Both the position numbers and the translations under genes were made by a program. A model generated the notes under the pieces. The model was not told where the DNA came from. It saw nothing but the letters and a program-made list of their open reading frames with translations, and made no database searches. Shown here piece after piece: positions 1 to 29,517 of a stretch of 29,517 nucleotides of DNA; the first letter of the stretch is position 1, and the number at the start of each line of letters is the position of its first letter. The stretch is from positions 1 to 29,517 of the IMG/VR virus record IMGVR_UViG_3300030104_001612; one strand, written 5' to 3'. This DNA is from a virus.

Positions 1-194
1 ACAGCGGGAACTTTATCTTTTACGCATTCATAATATTTAGATTTAATAAAATCCTGTTGTACGCTTTCTATCTCTTCTACTTTTGCCTTAAAATCCTCAT
101 CCTCTTTAAGCCATTTATAAAAGTTCGTTCTTGATAAACCCGCTGCTTTTAAAGCCGTTGTAACAACTCCCAAGCTTGACTCTAAAGCTTTTAA
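1..194. repeat. Left copy of imperfect terminal overlap
   Basis: This stretch matches bases 29324-29517 over 194 nt with seven mismatches that I counted by eye. Six of the seven are silent in the terS reading frame and one gives Ala/Thr, so the two copies look like two natural alleles and not random read errors. The simplest reading is that the contig closes on itself, with a genome of about 29,323 bp. A short true terminal redundancy is less likely because the copies would then be expected to be identical. Confidence 0.9.
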
Positions 195-233
195 TAATCT
201 TTCTTTGTTAATCTTTGTTCTATTTTGTTCCAT
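1..233 (-). CDS. terS: Terminase small subunit, N-terminal part (continues at the right end)
   Basis: This is the DNA-recognition subunit of the packaging motor, which binds phage DNA and hands it to TerL. The minus-strand frame starts at ATG 233-231 (MEQNRTKINKERLLKALESS) and runs off the left edge. It contains a helix-turn-helix of the terminase/Hin type at about residues 13-37 (VTTALKAAGLSRTNFYKWLK). Joined to 29203-29323 it gives 118 codons including the stop, in frame, which is a usual size for a small TerS. The start directly abuts the stop codon of the glycosyltransferase gene (234-236), so the two are probably translated from one message. Start choice is secure because the frame has an ATG here and a family-like N-terminus. 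Confidence 0.85.
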   Translation of the reverse strand, partial: MEQNRTKINKERLLKALESSLGVVTTALKAAGLSRTNFYKWLKEDEDFKAKVEEIESVQQDFIKSKYYECVKDKVPA

Positions 234-968
234 TTATACAGCTAATTTTATTGCAAACTCATTATTTGTTCTCTTTGCCGAAGCAACCATTCCAGGATAT
301 TGCTTTATTAATTTTTTAATACAAGCTCTTTCAATATCAATAGTTCTATAATCCTTGCAACCGCCCTCTGTTACCCAGTGATGATTTTCCCAGAATAAAT
401 ATCTAACCCCAAGTATTCCGCCTTTATCTTTTATATGGCGTAAGCATAATTCGTAATCTTCCTTTACAGTATACTCTTCATCAAAATAATACTCTCCATC
501 ATTTATAATACCCATTATAGAGCCTAGCGCATAAGTTTTAAATAAAAAGGGTTTGTATGGATAAGTACTTTTGCTGCTGGATTCTGTTGATACTCCCCAA
601 ATCTTATACTCCAATTGAATGCACATATCAAAGAATTTATTAAACTCATTAAGCCAAAAATCTTCATCTTTTATTTTAATCATGTTTACATTCCTTTTAT
701 TGAATCTAACATATCCCGCCGTTTTAACATCATCATCCAGCATAACTACGCGCTTATGATTGCAATTTTTTAATATCCAATTTCTAGTTGGCGTAATGCC
801 TTTAATTTCTTTTGGTATTCCTATTACGTTTTTATAAAATTGCTTGTATTGATGAACCTCACTTTCTGGCACATAAAAAGTACTATCTTTTATAATATCT
901 TGAGTAGTACATTTACCAGCTCTGTTTTTACTTGGAATCGCGCAGTGCATATCTTTTTTTAAATTCAT
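234..968 (-). CDS. TET-associated-type glycosyltransferase (TAGT-like), putative DNA-base glycosyltransferase
   Basis: A 244-residue protein that looks like a GT-A fold glycosyltransferase. Visible signs are an N-terminal AIPSKNR nucleotide-sugar-binding-like stretch (10-16), YVPESE (32-37), GITPTRNWIL (57-66), a DxD-type metal site VVMLDDD (74-80), and a late acidic KEDYE (169-173) followed by a GG turn (202-203). This set resembles the TAGT family described from phages, where members are predicted to attach sugars to modified bases in DNA. No TET/JBP hydroxylase or hydroxymethyl-pyrimidine synthase is recognised in this genome, so the acceptor is unknown. It lies between parB and terS, overlaps parB by 41 nt, and ends one base before the terS ATG. 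The upstream GGAGAGGG, 12 nt before ATG 968, supports the long start; Met7 is an alternative. Family membership is by eye and no search was run. Confidence 0.65.
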   Translation of the reverse strand: MNLKKDMHCAIPSKNRAGKCTTQDIIKDSTFYVPESEVHQYKQFYKNVIGIPKEIKGITPTRNWILKNCNHKRVVMLDDDVKTAGYVRFNKRNVNMIKIKDEDFWLNEFNKFFDMCIQLEYKIWGVSTESSSKSTYPYKPFLFKTYALGSIMGIINDGEYYFDEEYTVKEDYELCLRHIKDKGGILGVRYLFWENHHWVTEGGCKDYRTIDIERACIKKLIKQYPGMVASAKRTNNEFAIKLAV

Positions 969-1554
969 TATACGTTAAAACCCTCTCCATGCTTACAGAA
1001 TCAAATGAAGAGCCTTTTTTATATCCGCCTTTTCTTACTATTCCTAATTTTAAATCTTCTTTTAATTGCTCCCATTCCTCACTATTAGGTTCGCAAATAA
1101 TCATAATATATTCTTTTGGCGGCTCTATTTGTAATGATTGCGGCAGCTCTATTTCTTCGCCCTCTTCCGCCTCATCTATTTTATCATCTGGATTCTGCCA
1201 TACATCCAACCCCCAGTCTTCTAATTTAGTGCTATCCCATTCATTAGCTAACATATCCCACTCCCACTCTCCAAAGCCTACGTTATCTTTTACTATAAAC
1301 TCATCTTTCTGTTCTTTTGTTAATCCTTCCGCTATCTCAATCCATACTTCTTTTAGCCCAGCTTCTTTACTTGCCTTTAATCTCATATTCCCGCCCAGAA
1401 TCATCATTTCCTCATCTACAACTATCGGCCTCAGCTTTAACATTTCTGGAAATTCTTTTATTGATTTTACAAGCTTATTAAATTTATCATTCTTTATTAT
1501 CCTGGGATTATTTGGATTCCCTTTTAATTTGTATAACTTAACCTGTTGCTTCAT
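928..1554 (-). CDS. ParB-like N-terminal domain protein (ParB/sulfiredoxin fold)
   Basis: A 208-residue protein. Residues 5-100 look like a ParB N-terminal domain: NPNNPRIIKNDKFNKLVKSI, then PIVVDEEMMILGGNMRLKA, with GGNMRLKA (54-61) as the counterpart of the ParB box II GGHRRLRA, and a following KDNVGFGEWEWD segment. An acidic linker (about 123-140) leads to a second compact domain with the motif IMIICEPNSEEWEQLKEDL near the C-terminus. Proteins of this type sit beside phage terminase genes and may bind or nick DNA, or modify packaging. True plasmid-type partition is unlikely because there is no ParA. It shares the early transcript with the glycosyltransferase, whose start lies inside its 3' end. 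Confidence 0.75.
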   Translation of the reverse strand: MKQQVKLYKLKGNPNNPRIIKNDKFNKLVKSIKEFPEMLKLRPIVVDEEMMILGGNMRLKASKEAGLKEVWIEIAEGLTKEQKDEFIVKDNVGFGEWEWDMLANEWDSTKLEDWGLDVWQNPDDKIDEAEEGEEIELPQSLQIEPPKEYIMIICEPNSEEWEQLKEDLKLGIVRKGGYKKGSSFDSVSMERVLTYNEFKKRYALRDSK

Positions 1555-1586
1555 AATATATAATAGATTTTTTATTTATTTGTTTT

Positions 1587-5960: not shown

Positions 5961-6302
5961 TTAAAATGGTAAATCTTTATCGTCAGAAGTTACAAAATCC
6001 GTTGGCGTAAATCCGCTATCTTTTTTAACTTCATTTTGATTAACAAACCACCAGCCGTCGATTTGATTATAATACTTCCCGTTGTATTCTCTAGAATATA
6101 CATTTACGCTAATAGTAACCATATCCCCCTCTTTAAGCTTATTCATTTGCTTAACTCTTTCCCCCATAGCTCTTACAGCAACTATATTATTATATTTCTC
6201 TTCTGTATCTATTAAGCATGTTTGACTTTCCCAGGCCTTTCCAGCCTTAGTTGTTCCCGCTTCAGCTTGAAGCATTTTAATTAGTTTTCCTTTAATTTCC
6301 AT
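5961..6302 (-). CDS. ssb: Single-stranded DNA-binding protein (DUF3127-type OB fold)
   Basis: A 113-residue protein of the DUF3127 family, the small OB-fold proteins typical of Bacteroidota and their phages. The start MEIKGKLIKMLQAEAGTTKA and the segment LKEGDMVTISVNVYSREYNG form OB strands. The C-terminus ends in an acidic, aromatic tip (DDKDLPF), like the tip of bacterial SSB that docks partner proteins. It probably coats single-stranded phage DNA during replication and recombination. It is followed after one base by the DnaA-like gene and preceded after 3 nt by the coiled-coil gene. Confidence 0.75.
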   Translation of the reverse strand: MEIKGKLIKMLQAEAGTTKAGKAWESQTCLIDTEEKYNNIVAVRAMGERVKQMNKLKEGDMVTISVNVYSREYNGKYYNQIDGWWFVNQNEVKKDSGFTPTDFVTSDDKDLPF

Positions 6303-6305
6303 AAT

Positions 6306-6479
6306 TTATTTTTTTATAATTTTTAAAATTTTTTGTATTTTTTCTCTAGCTTCTATAATTTGTAATTTAAGATGCAAGTTGTTTTCTCTTAATCTGTTGT
6401 ATTCGCTTTTTAAATATTGAAGCTGGTCGCTATTATCTAAAGGCGTATTAATACTGTTTTTTGGCATTGCGCTTTCCAT
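6306..6479 (-). CDS. Small coiled-coil protein (57 aa)
   Basis: A 57-codon frame from ATG 6479 to TAA 6306-6308. The first 17 residues are polar (MESAMPKNSINTPLDN) and the rest is a continuous basic helix with heptad-like spacing (LKSEYNRLRENNLHLKLQII). Its stop lies 3 nt before the SSB start, so the two are very likely co-translated. No family is recognised; by context it may be an SSB partner or a small replication accessory. Confidence 0.6.
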   Translation of the reverse strand: MESAMPKNSINTPLDNSDQLQYLKSEYNRLRENNLHLKLQIIEAREKIQKILKIIKK

Positions 6480-6503
6480 AATTTATTATTTAGTTAGTAA
6501 AAA

Positions 6504-10666: not shown

Positions 10667-12682
10667 TTATTTAGGTAAAAATCCTTGGTTCTTCATTGTT
10701 TTAGGCGCTCTAGCTACTAGCCCATCATTTCTTTTTATTGTAAAGCCCTCACTTCTAGCCTTTGTCGCCGTTACTATTTTATCTCTCGTAATATTATCTG
10801 GATAATAAACGTAATCATCATCAACTGGCTTAGCCTGGTAAATTACCCTTCTAAAGTAATGGTGGCAGTTTCCACCGCCCTTATAAAGCCAAATTGAGTA
10901 CGTTGCAGCTCCACGTGGACCCCAGCCTGGGTTTACTGGAATGGTTGATAATCTTAATAAATCTTCCTTCCTATAAATCTTTTTGGCCGACATCATAGCC
11001 TTGCAAAAATCTCTGGTTTCCCCTTCTTGCTTTAGGCTTTTATTTTTTGTATACATATACCGAACTTTATAAAAAGATGTTTTGTTTTTATTTAATCCAT
11101 CTTGGCTACTTCTAGCGTTTGGGTTTTGTCTTCCAGTAGAAACAAAATCAAACTTTTCATTTGCCACTTTATTAAGCTCTTCCTCAAAATCAAAATCTTG
11201 ATGCTCTCCATCTACAATTTCATCATCTACTAGCTCCCATCCTTCTGGCACATCTTCGCCAAACTCAGCGATAAAATTAGAAAGCTCAGTTGCTTCAGAA
11301 TGGTCTTTGCAAGCCATATAAGCCGTTCTGCCTTCATATTCGTGTTCATGATACCCAGAGCATCCAATTTTTTTTGCATGCGCCTCAGCCTCTTCTATTG
11401 TACTAAAAACAGGCTCTCCATCTATCATTCCTAATTTACTAAATTTAACTTCTTGCTCAACTGTATCTTCCTCTGCATCTAATGGAGCTAGCCCAAGTTC
11501 TTCTCTAATTTCGTCTTGAGTCATTACTTCGCGTAAAGTTTTAGAATCGAATTGTACTGTAATAGGTTTTAATTGTACGAAATTAACAGGCAAATCCATA
11601 TTATTAACTTGGAAGATTTTTCTAAGCTGTTTAACTATTTGGTCCTGGAATGGTTTAATTACAGTTTGAGTGTAAAAGTTAGCGGCATTTATAAGCTCAT
11701 CAGTATTACTTGAGAATCCATTTGTACTATCTAAGCCCATAAGTGTTTTAGAAGTTACCCTGTGGCCGCTTAAAATATTCTGAACTAAAAGCTCCTGGAG
11801 CGCTAAATATTGCTTGTCAAGGTCGCTAGTGCTTATTGGCGTTACTTCTGGAGTCCTCGTTTTATCATCTGAAAAAGTAAGTACAAAAGAGCCGCTATTA
11901 GATTCTGAGCAAAATTTATCATTTAAGCTCCTTTCGATTTGGTTGCGCTCTTCCATCGTAGGAACTCCGTTCGCGAAGCTTATTAAAAAAGAGCCAGCAA
12001 AACCATTAGATATATTATTAAGATGAAACTCCGATATCTTGGAGTCTATAAGACAATAATTTGCGCATGATACCCAGTCGCTTACATAATAAGAATTCAT
12101 GTTTGGCGAATATAATCCAGAGTATAATATTTGATTTGCAGACGTTCTATCATTTGTATTAAAGGCTGGAACGTAATAAGGTTTATTTTGCCTTGTATTG
12201 CTCCAGTCAGAAGAGATATAATATCCTGGAGTTCTTCCTAGCTCATCTGGTTTAGCGCATCTTAATTTTTCTACTCCTATATGGTAAATTTCAGCGATTT
12301 GAGTCCTATCCTTGCTCCATACTATATTAAGTGCGAAAGCGCCTTGAAGCTTAAAGTCAAATGCTATCTTTTTTATTACTTCATGTAATGATTCATTACT
12401 ATTAGCTCTATTAATAAAGTTTTGCAATTTAACTCTAGTCATCTCATCCCTCTCATCTTCATCCTCTATAACTAAAGCCTCTCCCGCAATCATATCAGCG
12501 GTTGCATTAATAATCGCGCTTGTAATACTGCTAGTATAATATAAATCAATTAAAAATTGAGGATATAAATTGTTCCATTCCCCATTAGCATCCCCATAGG
12601 AAATCCAGTTTCTTTGCGATACTTCTTGAACAACTGGAGAGGTTGATGTTTGCAAGTTAATATTAATAATATTGTCTTTCAT
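10667..12682 (-). CDS. Portal protein with two C-terminal extension domains
   Basis: A 671-residue protein. Residues 1-410 fit a phage portal: WISYGDANGEWNNLYPQFLI, INATADMIAGEAL, DFKLQGAFALNIVW, then SGHRVTSKTLMGL and the closing helix of the stem region. The portal ring is the gate for DNA entry and exit in the capsid. Two extra segments follow: a Cys/His-rich part (IGCSGYHEHEYEGRTAYMAC, about 440-465) and a C-terminal domain with ETRDFCKAMMSAKKIYRKED and NPGWGPRGAATYSIWLYKGG (about 555-615), ending in CHHYFRR. These segments are known from XkdF/MuF-type head proteins; here they sit on the portal. It is the last large head gene, far from terL, which is unusual. Confidence 0.75.
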   Translation of the reverse strand: MKDNIININLQTSTSPVVQEVSQRNWISYGDANGEWNNLYPQFLIDLYYTSSITSAIINATADMIAGEALVIEDEDERDEMTRVKLQNFINRANSNESLHEVIKKIAFDFKLQGAFALNIVWSKDRTQIAEIYHIGVEKLRCAKPDELGRTPGYYISSDWSNTRQNKPYYVPAFNTNDRTSANQILYSGLYSPNMNSYYVSDWVSCANYCLIDSKISEFHLNNISNGFAGSFLISFANGVPTMEERNQIERSLNDKFCSESNSGSFVLTFSDDKTRTPEVTPISTSDLDKQYLALQELLVQNILSGHRVTSKTLMGLDSTNGFSSNTDELINAANFYTQTVIKPFQDQIVKQLRKIFQVNNMDLPVNFVQLKPITVQFDSKTLREVMTQDEIREELGLAPLDAEEDTVEQEVKFSKLGMIDGEPVFSTIEEAEAHAKKIGCSGYHEHEYEGRTAYMACKDHSEATELSNFIAEFGEDVPEGWELVDDEIVDGEHQDFDFEEELNKVANEKFDFVSTGRQNPNARSSQDGLNKNKTSFYKVRYMYTKNKSLKQEGETRDFCKAMMSAKKIYRKEDLLRLSTIPVNPGWGPRGAATYSIWLYKGGGNCHHYFRRVIYQAKPVDDDYVYYPDNITRDKIVTATKARSEGFTIKRNDGLVARAPKTMKNQGFLPK

Positions 12683-12692
12683 AATTTATTTT

Positions 12693-13367
12693 TTATAAGC
12701 CAGATAATCTACTATTCACATTAGCTGTTAAAGCCGCAGAAGATGAGGTGTATATTTGTATTTCTTTTATCGTACCATCATAAGCATTTGTTGATGGTTG
12801 GCGGACTCCTATTGCATCTATTTCCGCCTGGCCAGATTTATTTTCAGTATCGGCTTGAGCAACTCCATTTCTATATAAAGTCATATTATCAGAGCCATCT
12901 CTAGTAAAAACTAAATAATCATCGCCAAAAGTTCCGCTATCCAAATCAAAATCAGCTGCCGAATTATTTATTTTCATTCTTATTCTACTAGAGCTAATAA
13001 TTTTAATAAACTCTCCGCCTCCATCATTATCGCCAATAACTACATTAGAAAAATTACTTGGATTAAGCCTTATTCCAATTGTAAAAGCTCCTGGCAATTC
13101 AATATTAGAAGAGGATTGTAAATAATTTGTATCTGCGCTATTAAACGTTAAAGTTCCAGCTGAGTATGCTGGTTGATTAGTAGCGATACCTTGACCCATA
13201 TCAAAACTATTAGAAGAGCTATCCGCCCAGTTGCTTACATCAGAGCCATTTAAAGTAATTCCAACGGCATTCTGATACCATGCCTTTAAAGAAGCCTCAT
13301 CACTTGGACTCCAAGTTCCTTGGCTTTGCTTATTTACTAAGCTTAATCCGAGTTTTAAAGCTAACAT
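12693..13367 (-). CDS. LamG/concanavalin-like virion protein
   Basis: A 224-residue beta-rich protein. SLKAWYQNAVGITLNGSDVS and NWADSSSN followed by TFNSADTNYLQSS, GAFTIGIRL and DDYLVFTRDGSDNMTLYRNG are the usual order of a LamG/concanavalin-like jelly roll. Such domains bind sugars and occur on phage head-decoration and tail proteins. Its place between head genes favours a capsid decoration or neck adhesin that touches the host surface or mucus glycans. The first 17 residues are an N-terminal helix that may anchor it. Confidence 0.6.
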   Translation of the reverse strand: MLALKLGLSLVNKQSQGTWSPSDEASLKAWYQNAVGITLNGSDVSNWADSSSNSFDMGQGIATNQPAYSAGTLTFNSADTNYLQSSSNIELPGAFTIGIRLNPSNFSNVVIGDNDGGGEFIKIISSSRIRMKINNSAADFDLDSGTFGDDYLVFTRDGSDNMTLYRNGVAQADTENKSGQAEIDAIGVRQPSTNAYDGTIKEIQIYTSSSAALTANVNSRLSGL

Positions 13368-13655: not shown

Positions 13656-14135
13656 CTATTGCCCGTAATATATATAATTTGTACCGCTTGGCGCTTGCCG
13701 TTGAGTATATTGAATTTGCTGCGTTCCATCTTTTTCCGATACAAGCATTTTTCCCTTTGTAACTAAGCCTTGAACTACTCCATTATCTTCGCTAGGCTCT
13801 AATACTTGAGTTTCAGTAGATGGGGCGGTTTCCTCTGTAAGTCTTACAGTACCTTCCCAGCTTACTTCATAAACCTCATATTTCCAGAATCCAGCTGGTA
13901 AAAATTTTATTTTACCCGAGTAAACATTTGGCGTTGCACTATAAGCAAAAGTAGCCTTAGTATATCTATTATAAATGTTTTCCGTTTCTGCATAAGCGTA
14001 CTGGATTGATTTATCCATATCATTACTAAATTTAAATAAATGCCTTATATGCGCAGAAGTAACCGCCGTATTAATTCTATTATCTTCTGTTTGTATATAA
14101 GCCGAAAATCCTGTTTCAGTAATTGCTTGTATCAT
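13656..14135 (-). CDS. Virion protein, possible neck or decoration protein (159 aa)
   Basis: A 159-residue beta-rich protein: AYIQTEDNRINTAVTSAHIR, ATFAYSATPNVYSGKIKFLP and GFWKYEVYEVSWEGTVRL. A Thr/Glu/Pro-rich linker (about 100-112) precedes a short C-terminal domain (QGLVTKGKMLVSEKDGT, then PSGTNYIYYGQ). No family is recognised. It lies behind the terminator that follows the second tube-like gene, so it is probably made in lower amount. Confidence 0.5.
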   Translation of the reverse strand: MIQAITETGFSAYIQTEDNRINTAVTSAHIRHLFKFSNDMDKSIQYAYAETENIYNRYTKATFAYSATPNVYSGKIKFLPAGFWKYEVYEVSWEGTVRLTEETAPSTETQVLEPSEDNGVVQGLVTKGKMLVSEKDGTQQIQYTQRQAPSGTNYIYYGQ

Positions 14136-14180
14136 ACTATATAATAGAAATAGTCTTTATTTATTTGCTTATAAAAGAAA

Positions 14181-17182: not shown

Positions 17183-17213
17183 AAGTTCTTTTTTTATATA
17201 ATAGAATTGTTAT

Positions 17214-17930
17214 TTATTTTATTTGATTTTCGCGTATTATCTCATTTAAAGCTGATAATATTTCTTCATCAGTTGGGCTTTTTTCTGACATCTTTTGCAT
17301 CTTGTCAGTAAAATACCCCTCAATACTAAGTCCGCGCAAATTCCCTTGTTTTATCTCTTTCCAAAGCTCATCATTAGTTATTTTAAGTTTGACCATCCAT
17401 GTTCCTTTAGGCAGAGAAAAGCCGTATAAATTGCTCTTATCTAATTTTGTGTCTTCTATTATCCAGCTTTCAACTGTTAAAACTCCAGAAACTCTTTCAT
17501 TATGCTCATGAGTTGCCTTATGATGATTATTATGTTTTAAATAAAGTTCAGATGCGCGGCGCACCGTTGAAGGACTAAAGTAAACATAGTACTCCTTATC
17601 TGTATTAGGGTCGTACCTAAATATTTGTTTGTTTGGTATAAGCGCTGGGCTTACCAAAACTCTTTGGTCTTCATCTACTTTAGCAAAAGTTAAATTATTT
17701 TTTTCTTTTCCAAAATAAACAAAGTTTTCTTCTATTGCTGGGCTTGATACTAAGCTAATAGCATCAATAGCCAGCTCTTCGCTGTTATCATCTATTACCA
17801 ATTCTACAATAGATGTTGTCTTTTCGTAATAGTCTTTGTTAGCGGCTTCGCATTCAGCTTTAGAATCATATTCGCAGCTTCCTGTTTTTCCCCATTTATA
17901 TTTTCCGTTGTCGCATTTTTCGCAAGGCAT
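17214..17930 (-). CDS. XkdF-like prohead serine protease
   Basis: A 238-residue protein. Residues 38-235 match the XkdF/S78-type pattern: LAIDAISLVSSPAIEENFVY, FRYDPNTDKEYYVYFSPST, the His region KATHEHNE (138-145), then LTVESWIIED, GFSLPKGTWMVKLKI and LRGLSIEGYF (199-207), where Ser202 is the likely nucleophile. It should trim scaffold and capsid proteins. In front is a Cys-rich segment (CEKC 3-6, Cys19, Cys27) that could bind zinc and is also seen on related phage proteins. It follows the tape measure gene, which marks the switch from tail to head genes on this map. Confidence 0.75.
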   Translation of the reverse strand: MPCEKCDNGKYKWGKTGSCEYDSKAECEAANKDYYEKTTSIVELVIDDNSEELAIDAISLVSSPAIEENFVYFGKEKNNLTFAKVDEDQRVLVSPALIPNKQIFRYDPNTDKEYYVYFSPSTVRRASELYLKHNNHHKATHEHNERVSGVLTVESWIIEDTKLDKSNLYGFSLPKGTWMVKLKITNDELWKEIKQGNLRGLSIEGYFTDKMQKMSEKSPTDEEILSALNEIIRENQIK

Positions 17931-27944: not shown

Positions 27945-28015
27945 TAGTTTGATTCATTTTTAGTTAGAACCCCCGTTTAATATCTCTTGTCGTAATACTT
28001 GGCGGGGGTTTTTTT
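27945..28015 (+). ncRNA. Candidate plus-strand small RNA of about 70 nt
   Basis: The region between the promoter at 27909-27940 and the T-run at 28009-28015 holds no plus-strand coding frame of note. The expected start is near 27945, from the usual distance to the minus-7 box. The RNA would consist of a short AU-rich 5' part and the terminator hairpin with a 27-nt loop (27976-28002). Its 3' end meets the stop codon of terL on the opposite strand (28014-28016), so it hardly overlaps mRNA of terL. The minus strand here holds a 12-codon frame (27919-27957) of doubtful value. Confidence 0.45.
27968..28015 (+). terminator. Intrinsic terminator for the plus-strand RNA
   Basis: AACCCCCG (27968-27975) pairs with CGGGGGTT (28003-28010), followed by five more T. 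The 8-bp stem is GC-rich in an AT-rich setting. The 27-nt loop is longer than usual. The U-run is on the plus strand only; on the minus strand the hairpin is followed by TTCTAACT, so leftward terminator action would be weak. Confidence 0.55.
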
Positions 28016-29216
28016 ATTGCACAAAATATCTTCCAGCATTTGGATTATCTAAATGATATATAATATTATAGCGCGCGGCATCAATAGCATGGTTAAAAGA
28101 ATCATGATATAATTTAGAAGATTTATCTGAGTATACATAATTATTCAGCTCTTTAGCTATATTGGTTGATTCTGGAGTTACTACTAAATGATAATCTTGC
28201 ATCCTGGTTATACCGCTTTCAATAGTTCCTTTTTTTACAGGCTTTATATTAACCCCCAGATGCTTTAAGTCCGCTATAAGCCTAGGCTCTGCGCTATCCG
28301 CTACTATTAATTTATCTGCTACTTTATCTAAAATAATTGCAGACAATTCTTGCGACTTTAAACCATTCTTGTATATATGCTCTTTTAAATATATCCTTTG
28401 CTTCTTTTTATCAATTGCCACTTCCACTAAGCTATCGGGGTCTACGCTAAAGCCAAAATCCATTCCGCAAGATGTCTGCAAGCCATCGGGATTAAAATCC
28501 CCAAAGCTCCAGTTTTCAAATACTACCCCTTCAGCTTTATCTAACCATCCCCCAAGTATTTTATGTTTATACTTTTTAACATTATTAAGCTTTATAGCCT
28601 TTATACGCTCTAAGAAGCTCGTAGACAGGTTTTCTTTATTGTCTAGGTACGTACTATGTATATAGCATATATTGCCTTTAGAACCGTTAAAACCAGCCTC
28701 CACGCCTTTATCCTCAAAAAACCTTTTATATATCCAGTGCTCTTTAGTTACTGGATTTAATATTAATATAATTCTGTTTTGAGTATTTTTTTCTCTAATG
28801 CTTAAATCTATTGTATCAAATATATCTTCATCAATTAGCTCTTCTGCCTCGTCTAATACCCAGCAGCTTATTCCTTGTAATGATTTTAGGCTAGCTGTTT
28901 GATTACCAGCTGATGTTTTTATTCCTCTAAATAGTATATCTGAATTATTGCTTGTATTTAACACCTCTGTTTTATTTACGCTAAATATATTATCAAATCC
29001 CAGCAATCCTATTTTCTCTAAAAATTCTGGAATGATTGAAAGATGCGCCGATACCATTGTAAACCTTGTAAAAAGTATTCTTATCCCTTTAGTCATTGTC
29101 AGCAAGGTTAAGAATGCCGTAACAGCAAAAGATTTTCCAGAGCCTCTTCCGCCCGTTATTATAAAATACCGCGCATCCGATTCAAAAAGCGCCTGGTATT
29201 TATTATTCAGTTTCAG
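28014..29216 (-). CDS. terL: Terminase large subunit, no ATG start
   Basis: The ATPase and nuclease that packs DNA into the head. From a CTG at 29216 it has 400 residues, usual for the PBSX-type (Terminase_3) family. Walker A is TGGRGSGKS (21-29), Walker B is VLDEAEE (about 120-126), motif III is LNPVTKEHW, and the nuclease part shows CGMDFGF (Asp253), LIVADSAEPR (Asp307) and NHAIDAARY (Asp379). The frame is open from a TAG at 29220-29222 and has no ATG before Walker A, so it must start at ATT (29219), CTG (29216) or CTG (29210), overlapping the end of terS. The first ATG or TTG would remove the ATP-binding loop. The stop lies in the T-run of the plus-strand terminator. Confidence 0.9.
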   Translation of the reverse strand: MKLNNKYQALFESDARYFIITGGRGSGKSFAVTAFLTLLTMTKGIRILFTRFTMVSAHLSIIPEFLEKIGLLGFDNIFSVNKTEVLNTSNNSDILFRGIKTSAGNQTASLKSLQGISCWVLDEAEELIDEDIFDTIDLSIREKNTQNRIILILNPVTKEHWIYKRFFEDKGVEAGFNGSKGNICYIHSTYLDNKENLSTSFLERIKAIKLNNVKKYKHKILGGWLDKAEGVVFENWSFGDFNPDGLQTSCGMDFGFSVDPDSLVEVAIDKKKQRIYLKEHIYKNGLKSQELSAIILDKVADKLIVADSAEPRLIADLKHLGVNIKPVKKGTIESGITRMQDYHLVVTPESTNIAKELNNYVYSDKSSKLYHDSFNHAIDAARYNIIYHLDNPNAGRYFVQ

Positions 29217-29517
29217 AATCTACAAATTTTATTATTGGCATATTAATCGGTTTATCGCCCGAAGTTACATCTAATCTATTAGTTTCATTCCATCCTAATC
29301 TAGTTTTAGCGGCATGAATTACCACAGCGGGAACTTTATCTTTTACGCATTCATAATATTTAGATTTAATAAAATCCTGTTGTACGCTTTCTATCTCTTC
29401 AACTTTCGCTTTAAAATCCTCATCCTCTTTAAGCCATTTATAAAAGTTTGTTCTTGATAAGCCCGTTGCTTTTAAAGCCGTTGTAACAACTCCCAAGCTT
29501 GACTCTAAAGCTTTTAG
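29203..29517 (-). CDS. terS: Terminase small subunit, C-terminal part (open at the right edge)
   Basis: The frame runs in from the right edge without a start and stops at TAA 29203-29205. Its first part repeats residues already seen at the left edge (SRTNFYKWLKEDEDFKAKVE) with one change, Ala to Thr, in the turn before GLSRTNF. The C-terminal segment VIHAAKTRLGWNETNRLDVT and PINMPIIKFVDSETE is the oligomer and TerL-contacting part of the family. Coupled with bases 1-233 it makes one complete gene. The TTG at 29496 is not the true start. Its last 14 nt overlap the terL frame. Confidence 0.85.
   Translation of the reverse strand, partial: LKALESSLGVVTTALKATGLSRTNFYKWLKEDEDFKAKVEEIESVQQDFIKSKYYECVKDKVPAVVIHAAKTRLGWNETNRLDVTSGDKPINMPIIKFVDSETE
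29324..29517. repeat. Right copy of imperfect terminal overlap
   Basis: The counterpart of bases 1-194, with seven substitutions and no indel. The substitutions fall in two groups, around 29400-29412 and 29446-29466, plus the last base. All but one are silent, which points to two related strains in the source DNA. Confidence 0.9.

Follow-up and report, generated by a model that had tools for sequence, protein, structure and literature searches.

A recurrent ParB-TAGT gene pair in phages and its predicted role in glycosylating phage DNA

INTRODUCTION

What does a TAGT-family glycosyltransferase act on in a phage without a recognizable base hydroxylase, and with which of its gene neighbors does it work? 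The question is raised by the viral record IMGVR_UViG_3300030104_001612, analyzed here over its whole length of 29,517 bases (the window), with the main genes all on the minus strand. A sequence-only reading had placed the glycosyltransferase between a ParB-like gene and terS, and we recover both neighbors, the ParB-like gene upstream at 928-1554 and a terS-like gene downstream at 233. We propose, with a probability of about 0.72, that ParB and TAGT form a mobile two-gene phage module which glycosylates the phage's own DNA, guided by ParB, late and as protection.

RESULTS AND DISCUSSION

The window is an essentially complete phage genome

The first and last 194 bases of the window (1-194 versus 29324-29517) are identical at 187 of 194 positions (96%), with 7 mismatches. 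Because the record ends overlap in this way, terS appears as two partial ORFs, and the overlap and the split gene together identify the window as an essentially complete phage genome of ~29.3 kb, circular or circularly permuted. The assembly of the circular genome ran on beyond one full turn, and the mismatches are strain variation. The terminase genes are as follows.

3 to 233, minus strand: N-terminal part of terS (phrog_4044 terminase small subunit, 2.5e-7), running on at 29203-29517 across the circular join
29203 to 29517, minus strand: C-terminal part of terS (Sf6_terminase, weak), with the 194-bp end overlap
28014 to 29105, minus strand: terL (Terminase_3, E = 2e-27)

The phage is small and probably of marine origin; "marine" serves below as shorthand for the TAGT subfamily of the window, an environment that we infer. 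DUF6712, the low G+C content (31 to 36%), and a BT4734-like primase in a relative suggest a Bacteroidota host, while a scan of genome contigs returned a single MAG contig, which gives no host. AT-rich elements (TATATAATAGA... and TTCCATAATTTATTTTTT) recur at or near minus-strand start codons of the window (1546-1585, 14127-14166, 17195-17224, 6297-6314, 6474-6491, and 12677-12694) and look like promoter or translation-start signals.

The glycosyltransferase is a TAGT with conserved catalytic motifs

234 to 968, minus strand: TAGT-family GT-A glycosyltransferase, listed at 244 aa (PF20691, phrog_842, AlphaFold GT-A fold)
729 to 737, minus strand: codons of the DDD metal-binding motif (D78-D80), invariant in 210/210 homologues
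450 to 461, minus strand: codons of EDYE (170-173), of which E170-D171 is the putative catalytic acidic pair; E170, D171, and Y172 invariant in 210/210
928 to 950, minus strand: parB/TAGT gene overlap of 23 nt, the same in most marine loci

The ORF at 234-968 matches the Pfam TAGT profile PF20691 from end to end (E = 8.7e-16; 58.9 bits against a cutoff of 27.5; profile positions 1-205 of 205), as well as PHROG 842, "beta-glucosyl-HMC-alpha-glucosyltransferase" (E = 2.8e-25). The motifs SKNR (13-16), TPTRNW (59-64), LDDD (77-80), and EDYE (170-173), by which a 244-residue TAGT-like protein had been recognized from the sequence alone, are all present. Across 210 aligned homologues, D78, D79, D80, K169, E170, D171, and Y172 show no variation at all. 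Together with a median dN/dS of ~0.03 among 32 close marine pairs, this indicates that the catalytic motifs are intact and under strong purifying selection.

The profile and structure check that had been suggested for this protein also came out in favor of a TAGT, with a match above the Pfam cutoff and a predicted GT-A fold (AlphaFold AF2 model, pTM 0.79). Foldseek ranks TarP/TarS at the top, and GalNAc-T2 and BcsA (a GalNAc-transferase and a cellulose synthase) match with Z of ~12. The closest structures are teichoic-acid, peptide, and polysaccharide enzymes, and the GT-A fold by itself is no pointer to DNA as the substrate. A 2026 survey likewise counts the TAGT of T6 among the GT-A enzymes, next to GT2 (PMC13216743).

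The true start is likely the internal Met7 at 950, giving a protein of ~238 aa, because nearly all homologues begin there with exactly the same 23-nt overlap with parB; translational coupling of the two genes is probable. The gene thus does begin inside parB, as the sequence-only reading had it (23 nt from Met7). That reading's statement that the gene ends one base before the terS start can be made more precise: the stop codon of TAGT (234-236) and the ATG of terS (233-231) are immediately next to each other.

The ParB-like partner carries a domain found solely beside TAGT

928 to 1554, minus strand: ParB-like partner, 208 aa (ParB_N, PHROG ParB families, ParB/Noc/KorB/Srx fold)
943 to 1149, minus strand: ParB C-terminal domain (residues ~136-204), confined to TAGT-associated ParBs

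The product of the upstream ORF matches Pfam ParB_N (PF02195) at E = 4.6e-5 and 23.8 bits, just under the 26.3-bit cutoff, which the partner proteins in two other loci (L071 and L072) pass. It also matches PHROG families with ParB domains (E to 1e-25), and Foldseek retrieves ParB at E = 7e-6 in addition to Noc, KorB, PadC, and Srx, giving the protein a ParB/Srx fold. No ParA-type Pfam match was obtained among the window ORFs scanned. An N6/N4 methyltransferase, fused or adjacent, is absent from the window ParB, which at 208 aa has ParB_N only and is followed by TAGT. The gene product Javan291_0034 (L072, 5393-5983) is annotated as a "DNA modification methylase" yet contains a ParB domain only, and was probably misannotated from ParB-methyltransferase fusions.

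The C-terminal part of the ParB-like protein appears to be a domain that occurs solely beside TAGT. For a model built from the marine domain, TAGT adjoins every match except one at which the contig breaks off, and where there is a second ParB copy without the domain, that copy has no TAGT beside it. For the equivalent model of a second TAGT subfamily (see below), all 74 of the 74 matched ParBs precede a TAGT, with 0 matches in the ParBs of methyltransferase, Mom, and DpdA-like loci. The two domains are linked to each other only moderately (hhalign probability, 87).

ParB and TAGT form the conserved unit

The window-subfamily set comprises 69 IMG/VR loci with TAGT relatives at 51 to 85% identity, and a second scan with the TAGT protein of the Streptococcus prophage Javan291, which is 24% identical to that of the window, kept 80 loci. 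These loci are phylogenetically related and partly redundant and many contigs are fragments, so the counts below do not represent independent events. ParB is located directly upstream of TAGT in 66 of 66 uncut marine loci. The second subfamily has ParB in this position in 64 of 72 loci, and in 6 more a single gene separates the two. The pair is also present in Javan291 and in cultured Microbacterium phages. The glycosyltransferase of Microbacterium cluster EC falls below Pfam TAGT detection and is treated here as a putative distant relative because of its tblastn match to the window TAGT (E = 3e-6), the motifs in common, and the gene order. The next gene after the pair in these phages encodes a UDP-glucose dehydrogenase, not a terminase, which hints at glucuronate as the donor sugar there.

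Nine near-complete genomes have only the TAGT and ParB families in common to all 9, with TerL in 7. Likewise, in 24 second-subfamily loci with ~6 kb on both flanks, ParB (23 loci) and TAGT (22 loci) are near-universal, and the next family is found in 13. Between TAGT and TerL identity, the correlation is weak for the marine loci (rho = 0.36) and absent for the second subfamily (rho = -0.07), whereas TAGT and ParB identity remain correlated in the two sets after correction for TerL (partial rho = 0.34 and 0.36; permutation p = 0.001); in this comparison, the very low TerL identities beside near-identical TAGTs in L137/L138 and L074/L075 may reflect fragments and are not to be read singly. Because TAGT identity tracks ParB, but TerL only weakly or not at all, the two genes seem to be passed from phage to phage together. 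The conserved unit is thus ParB-TAGT and not parB-TAGT-terS. The earlier suggestion that ParB-type DNA handling is coupled to the glycosyltransferase is supported by near-obligatory adjacency, sharing among the nine genomes, correlated identity, and the C-terminal domain.

Two arrangements among these loci stand apart. A single 44,117-bp contig (L090 and L091) returns the same ParB match, 64% identical to the window, with identical scores, and may run past the full genome length or hold two copies. In L236 (3735-5156; also L237 and L238), a 473-aa protein encoded directly after the ParB gene combines a P-loop start (GPSCAGKT) with a TAGT domain (E = 1e-49), a predicted fusion of a kinase-like protein and a glycosyltransferase.

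A predicted route to glycosylated DNA and its acceptor

In the mechanism that we favor, the ParB-like protein, whose ParB/Srx fold is of a nucleotide-binding kind, would load onto phage DNA or scan along it and hold TAGT through the TAGT-specific C-terminal domain. TAGT would then glycosylate a base, either plain or already modified, with the sugar of a nucleotide-sugar (probably a UDP-sugar). The position of the genes shortly ahead of the terminase suggests that this would take place late, after replication and before packaging, the stage at which Mom of phage Mu acts. The sugar on the DNA would then protect against host nucleases and restriction.

According to the 2026 survey, the TAGT of T6 puts a second glucose on glucosylated hmC in DNA (PMC13216743). 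The window clade probably glycosylates DNA as well, although the acceptors known for TAGT in DNA are the hydroxyl of hmC or a sugar attached to it, and no enzyme that would make a hydroxylated base is seen here. TET/JBP was found in 0 of 94 record searches (~90 distinct records) by a search that detected the positive control, Mycobacterium phage Nigel. A ThyA-type dCMP/dUMP hydroxymethylase was found in 0 of 50 records, the window, Smarties, and Javan291 among them, by a search that was positive in all nine control genomes. Pfam profiles likewise identified no base hydroxylase in the ORFs of the window and of six other genomes with the pair. At the profile level, this agrees with the earlier statement that the window has no recognizable base hydroxylase. 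The accompanying premise, that known systems pair TAGT with TET/JBP or a hydroxymethylated base, does not make the window unique, since 288 of 753 phage genomes in the survey have solitary TAGTs, without alpha- and beta-glucosyltransferases (PMC13216743).

The alternative that fares best would have TAGT act on hydroxymethylated or hydroxylated pyrimidines, in the style of T6 or TET, with the hydroxyl supplied by an unrecognized phage enzyme or by the host and with ParB only delivering the glycosyltransferase. It overlaps the mechanism above, the acceptor being the sole difference, and we regard it as a real, if tentative, possibility. As far as is known, the characterized DNA-acting relatives of TAGT all use oxygen acceptors (PMC13216743), and many ORFs of these phages are without assignment and could hold such an enzyme. 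The searches for TET and ThyA-type enzymes weigh against it, as does the comparison of gene content. We considered a hidden hydroxylase as a conserved third gene and rejected this candidate, since no third gene is common to the module-bearing genomes (nine genomes; 24 loci). A hydroxylase would accordingly have to be either nonhomologous from one phage to the next or present in all of the very different hosts; the acceptor hydroxyl would come from unrelated, unseen sources, or the module would need none.

The second of these options, in which ParB-TAGT would be self-sufficient and transfer a sugar in one step to an unmodified base (e.g., an exocyclic amine), with ParB choosing or opening the site, seems to us somewhat unlikely. 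We know of no precedent in DNA modification for one-step glycosylation of an unmodified base. Sugar on DNA that lacks any hydroxylated base, if it were indeed found, would overturn the rule that such a base is required for the glycosylation of phage DNA.

ParB relatives accompany other DNA base modifiers

That TAGT acts on DNA is believed mainly because relatives of its ParB partner accompany other enzymes that modify DNA bases. With the Javan291 ParB as bait, we collected 58 loci, 43 of which have a recognized base-modifying partner: 32 N6/N4 methyltransferases (mostly fused to ParB, the rest adjacent), 4 DpdA-like proteins, 2 Mom proteins, and 5 other TAGTs. The rest comprise 8 loci in which a GNAT-like ORF comes after a P-loop protein, 1 with a radical SAM protein, and a few others. 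In addition, several distinct TAGT subfamilies carry ParB, and ParBc has been described as a frequent neighbor of the phage DNA carboxymethyltransferase CmoX (PMC12783734).

Some of these loci show further features. The ParB gene is followed by a P-loop ATPase-like protein and/or a GNAT sequence in L228 to L235 and in L299 (2453-4074; Leptospira phage LE3), possibly a further ParB-coupled type of modification. A DpdA-like queuine transglycosylase follows ParB in L227 (phrog_887), L241, L266, and L273, and in L227 and L273 the gene after it has a QueC-like start. One phage of the window subfamily (L089, 3989-5333) has, besides the ParB-TAGT pair, a second ParB-like gene that overlaps an N6/N4 methyltransferase.

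A substrate other than DNA, either a surface glycan or a protein (from the host, or ParB itself, the terminase, or the capsid), with ParB paired to the glycosyltransferase as its target, would fit the GT-A fold, which is nearest to those of wall teichoic acid enzymes and peptide GalNAc-transferases, and the ParB C-terminal domain, present solely beside TAGT, could be the acceptor domain. We nevertheless consider this improbable: the enzymes that occur with relatives of this ParB N-domain (Mom, DpdA-like proteins, and N6/N4 methyltransferases) all act on DNA bases, and ParB is carried by TAGT subfamilies that are distinct from each other.

The terminase neighborhood varies

The survey of parB-TAGT-terS proposed in the sequence-only reading succeeded for parB-TAGT, which recurs in phages without TET, and failed for terS as a fixed third member. 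A terS-family gene is next downstream of TAGT in 38 of the 69 marine loci; 13 have a small unassigned gene and then TerL, another 13 have TerL within six genes, and 3 have no TerL within six genes. Phages with very similar TAGTs have strongly differing terminases. In Leptospira phage LE3, ParB and a P-loop/GNAT protein are followed by terL a few genes on, and since this other ParB-linked gene also sits shortly before the terminase, the position looks like a general late-gene slot.

The proposed link to recognition of the packaging start thus finds no support. In that scenario, ParB would bind near terS, TAGT would glycosylate the DNA there, and the terminase would recognize the mark. Most marine loci do have terS, or a small unassigned gene and then terL, directly downstream, and terL follows shortly after the pair in Javan291; however, other genes intervene in several loci, the Microbacterium phages have another neighborhood, and a repeat search of the window turned up no family of parS-like repeats dispersed along it. 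Because terminases and neighbors vary while ParB-TAGT stays constant, we dropped the packaging mark as the main idea and hold it to be very unlikely. Weakest of all, and strongly disfavored, is adjacency as a by-product of shared ancestry or synteny within one phage lineage and without functional coupling. Many marine loci do stem from related phages, but ParB and TAGT are still found together at 24% identity, in environmental viral contigs (marine and other) and in phages of Streptococcus and Microbacterium, where the other genes differ, and the ParB has a partner-specific domain.

Comparison with known systems

TAGTs, including solitary ones, were already known, and our search of a limited literature library found no report of the ParB-TAGT pair or of a ParB-coupled module without hydroxylases. 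The pairing gives a partner to solitary TAGTs, which earlier work lists as probably novel transferases with no context known for them, and ties them to a wider plan of ParB plus base modifier (methyltransferase, Mom, DpdA-like, and CmoX). It also points to the lab-grown Microbacterium cluster EC phages, whose DNA can be analyzed.

The T6 beta-glucosyl-HMC-alpha-glucosyltransferase (TAGT, PF20691) shares its family profile, GT-A fold, and acidic metal motif with the window TAGT. It acts on hmC already glucosylated by an alpha-glucosyltransferase, whereas the window has no recognized hydroxymethylase or TET and instead has, in the adjacent gene, a ParB whose C-terminal domain is TAGT-specific. 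Hypermodification systems of the TET/JBP-TAGT type use the same glycosyltransferase family together with the TET/JBP enzyme that was not found in the ~90 records searched here, and hmC glucosylation of the T-even type involves the ThyA-family hydroxymethylase, found in 0 of the 50 records searched. The solitary TAGTs in PMC13216743 resemble that of the window in having no alpha- or beta-glucosyltransferase beside them.

On the ParB side, the phage ParB-DNA methyltransferase fusions (phrog_498) have an N-domain homologous to that of the window ParB, but there the modifier is a methyltransferase within the same protein, whereas in the window it is a glycosyltransferase encoded by a separate, overlapping gene and ParB has a C-terminal domain of its own. 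In phages with Mom (PF25680) or a DpdA-like protein, the ParB N-domain gene immediately precedes the base modifier, as in the window, with other chemistry and without the TAGT-specific C-terminal domain. Finally, the CmoX/CmoY carboxymethylcytosine system resembles the window in that ParBc is frequent in its neighborhood, and it proceeds by carboxymethylation and then an AMP-forming ligase (PMC12783734), where the window module would proceed by glycosylation.
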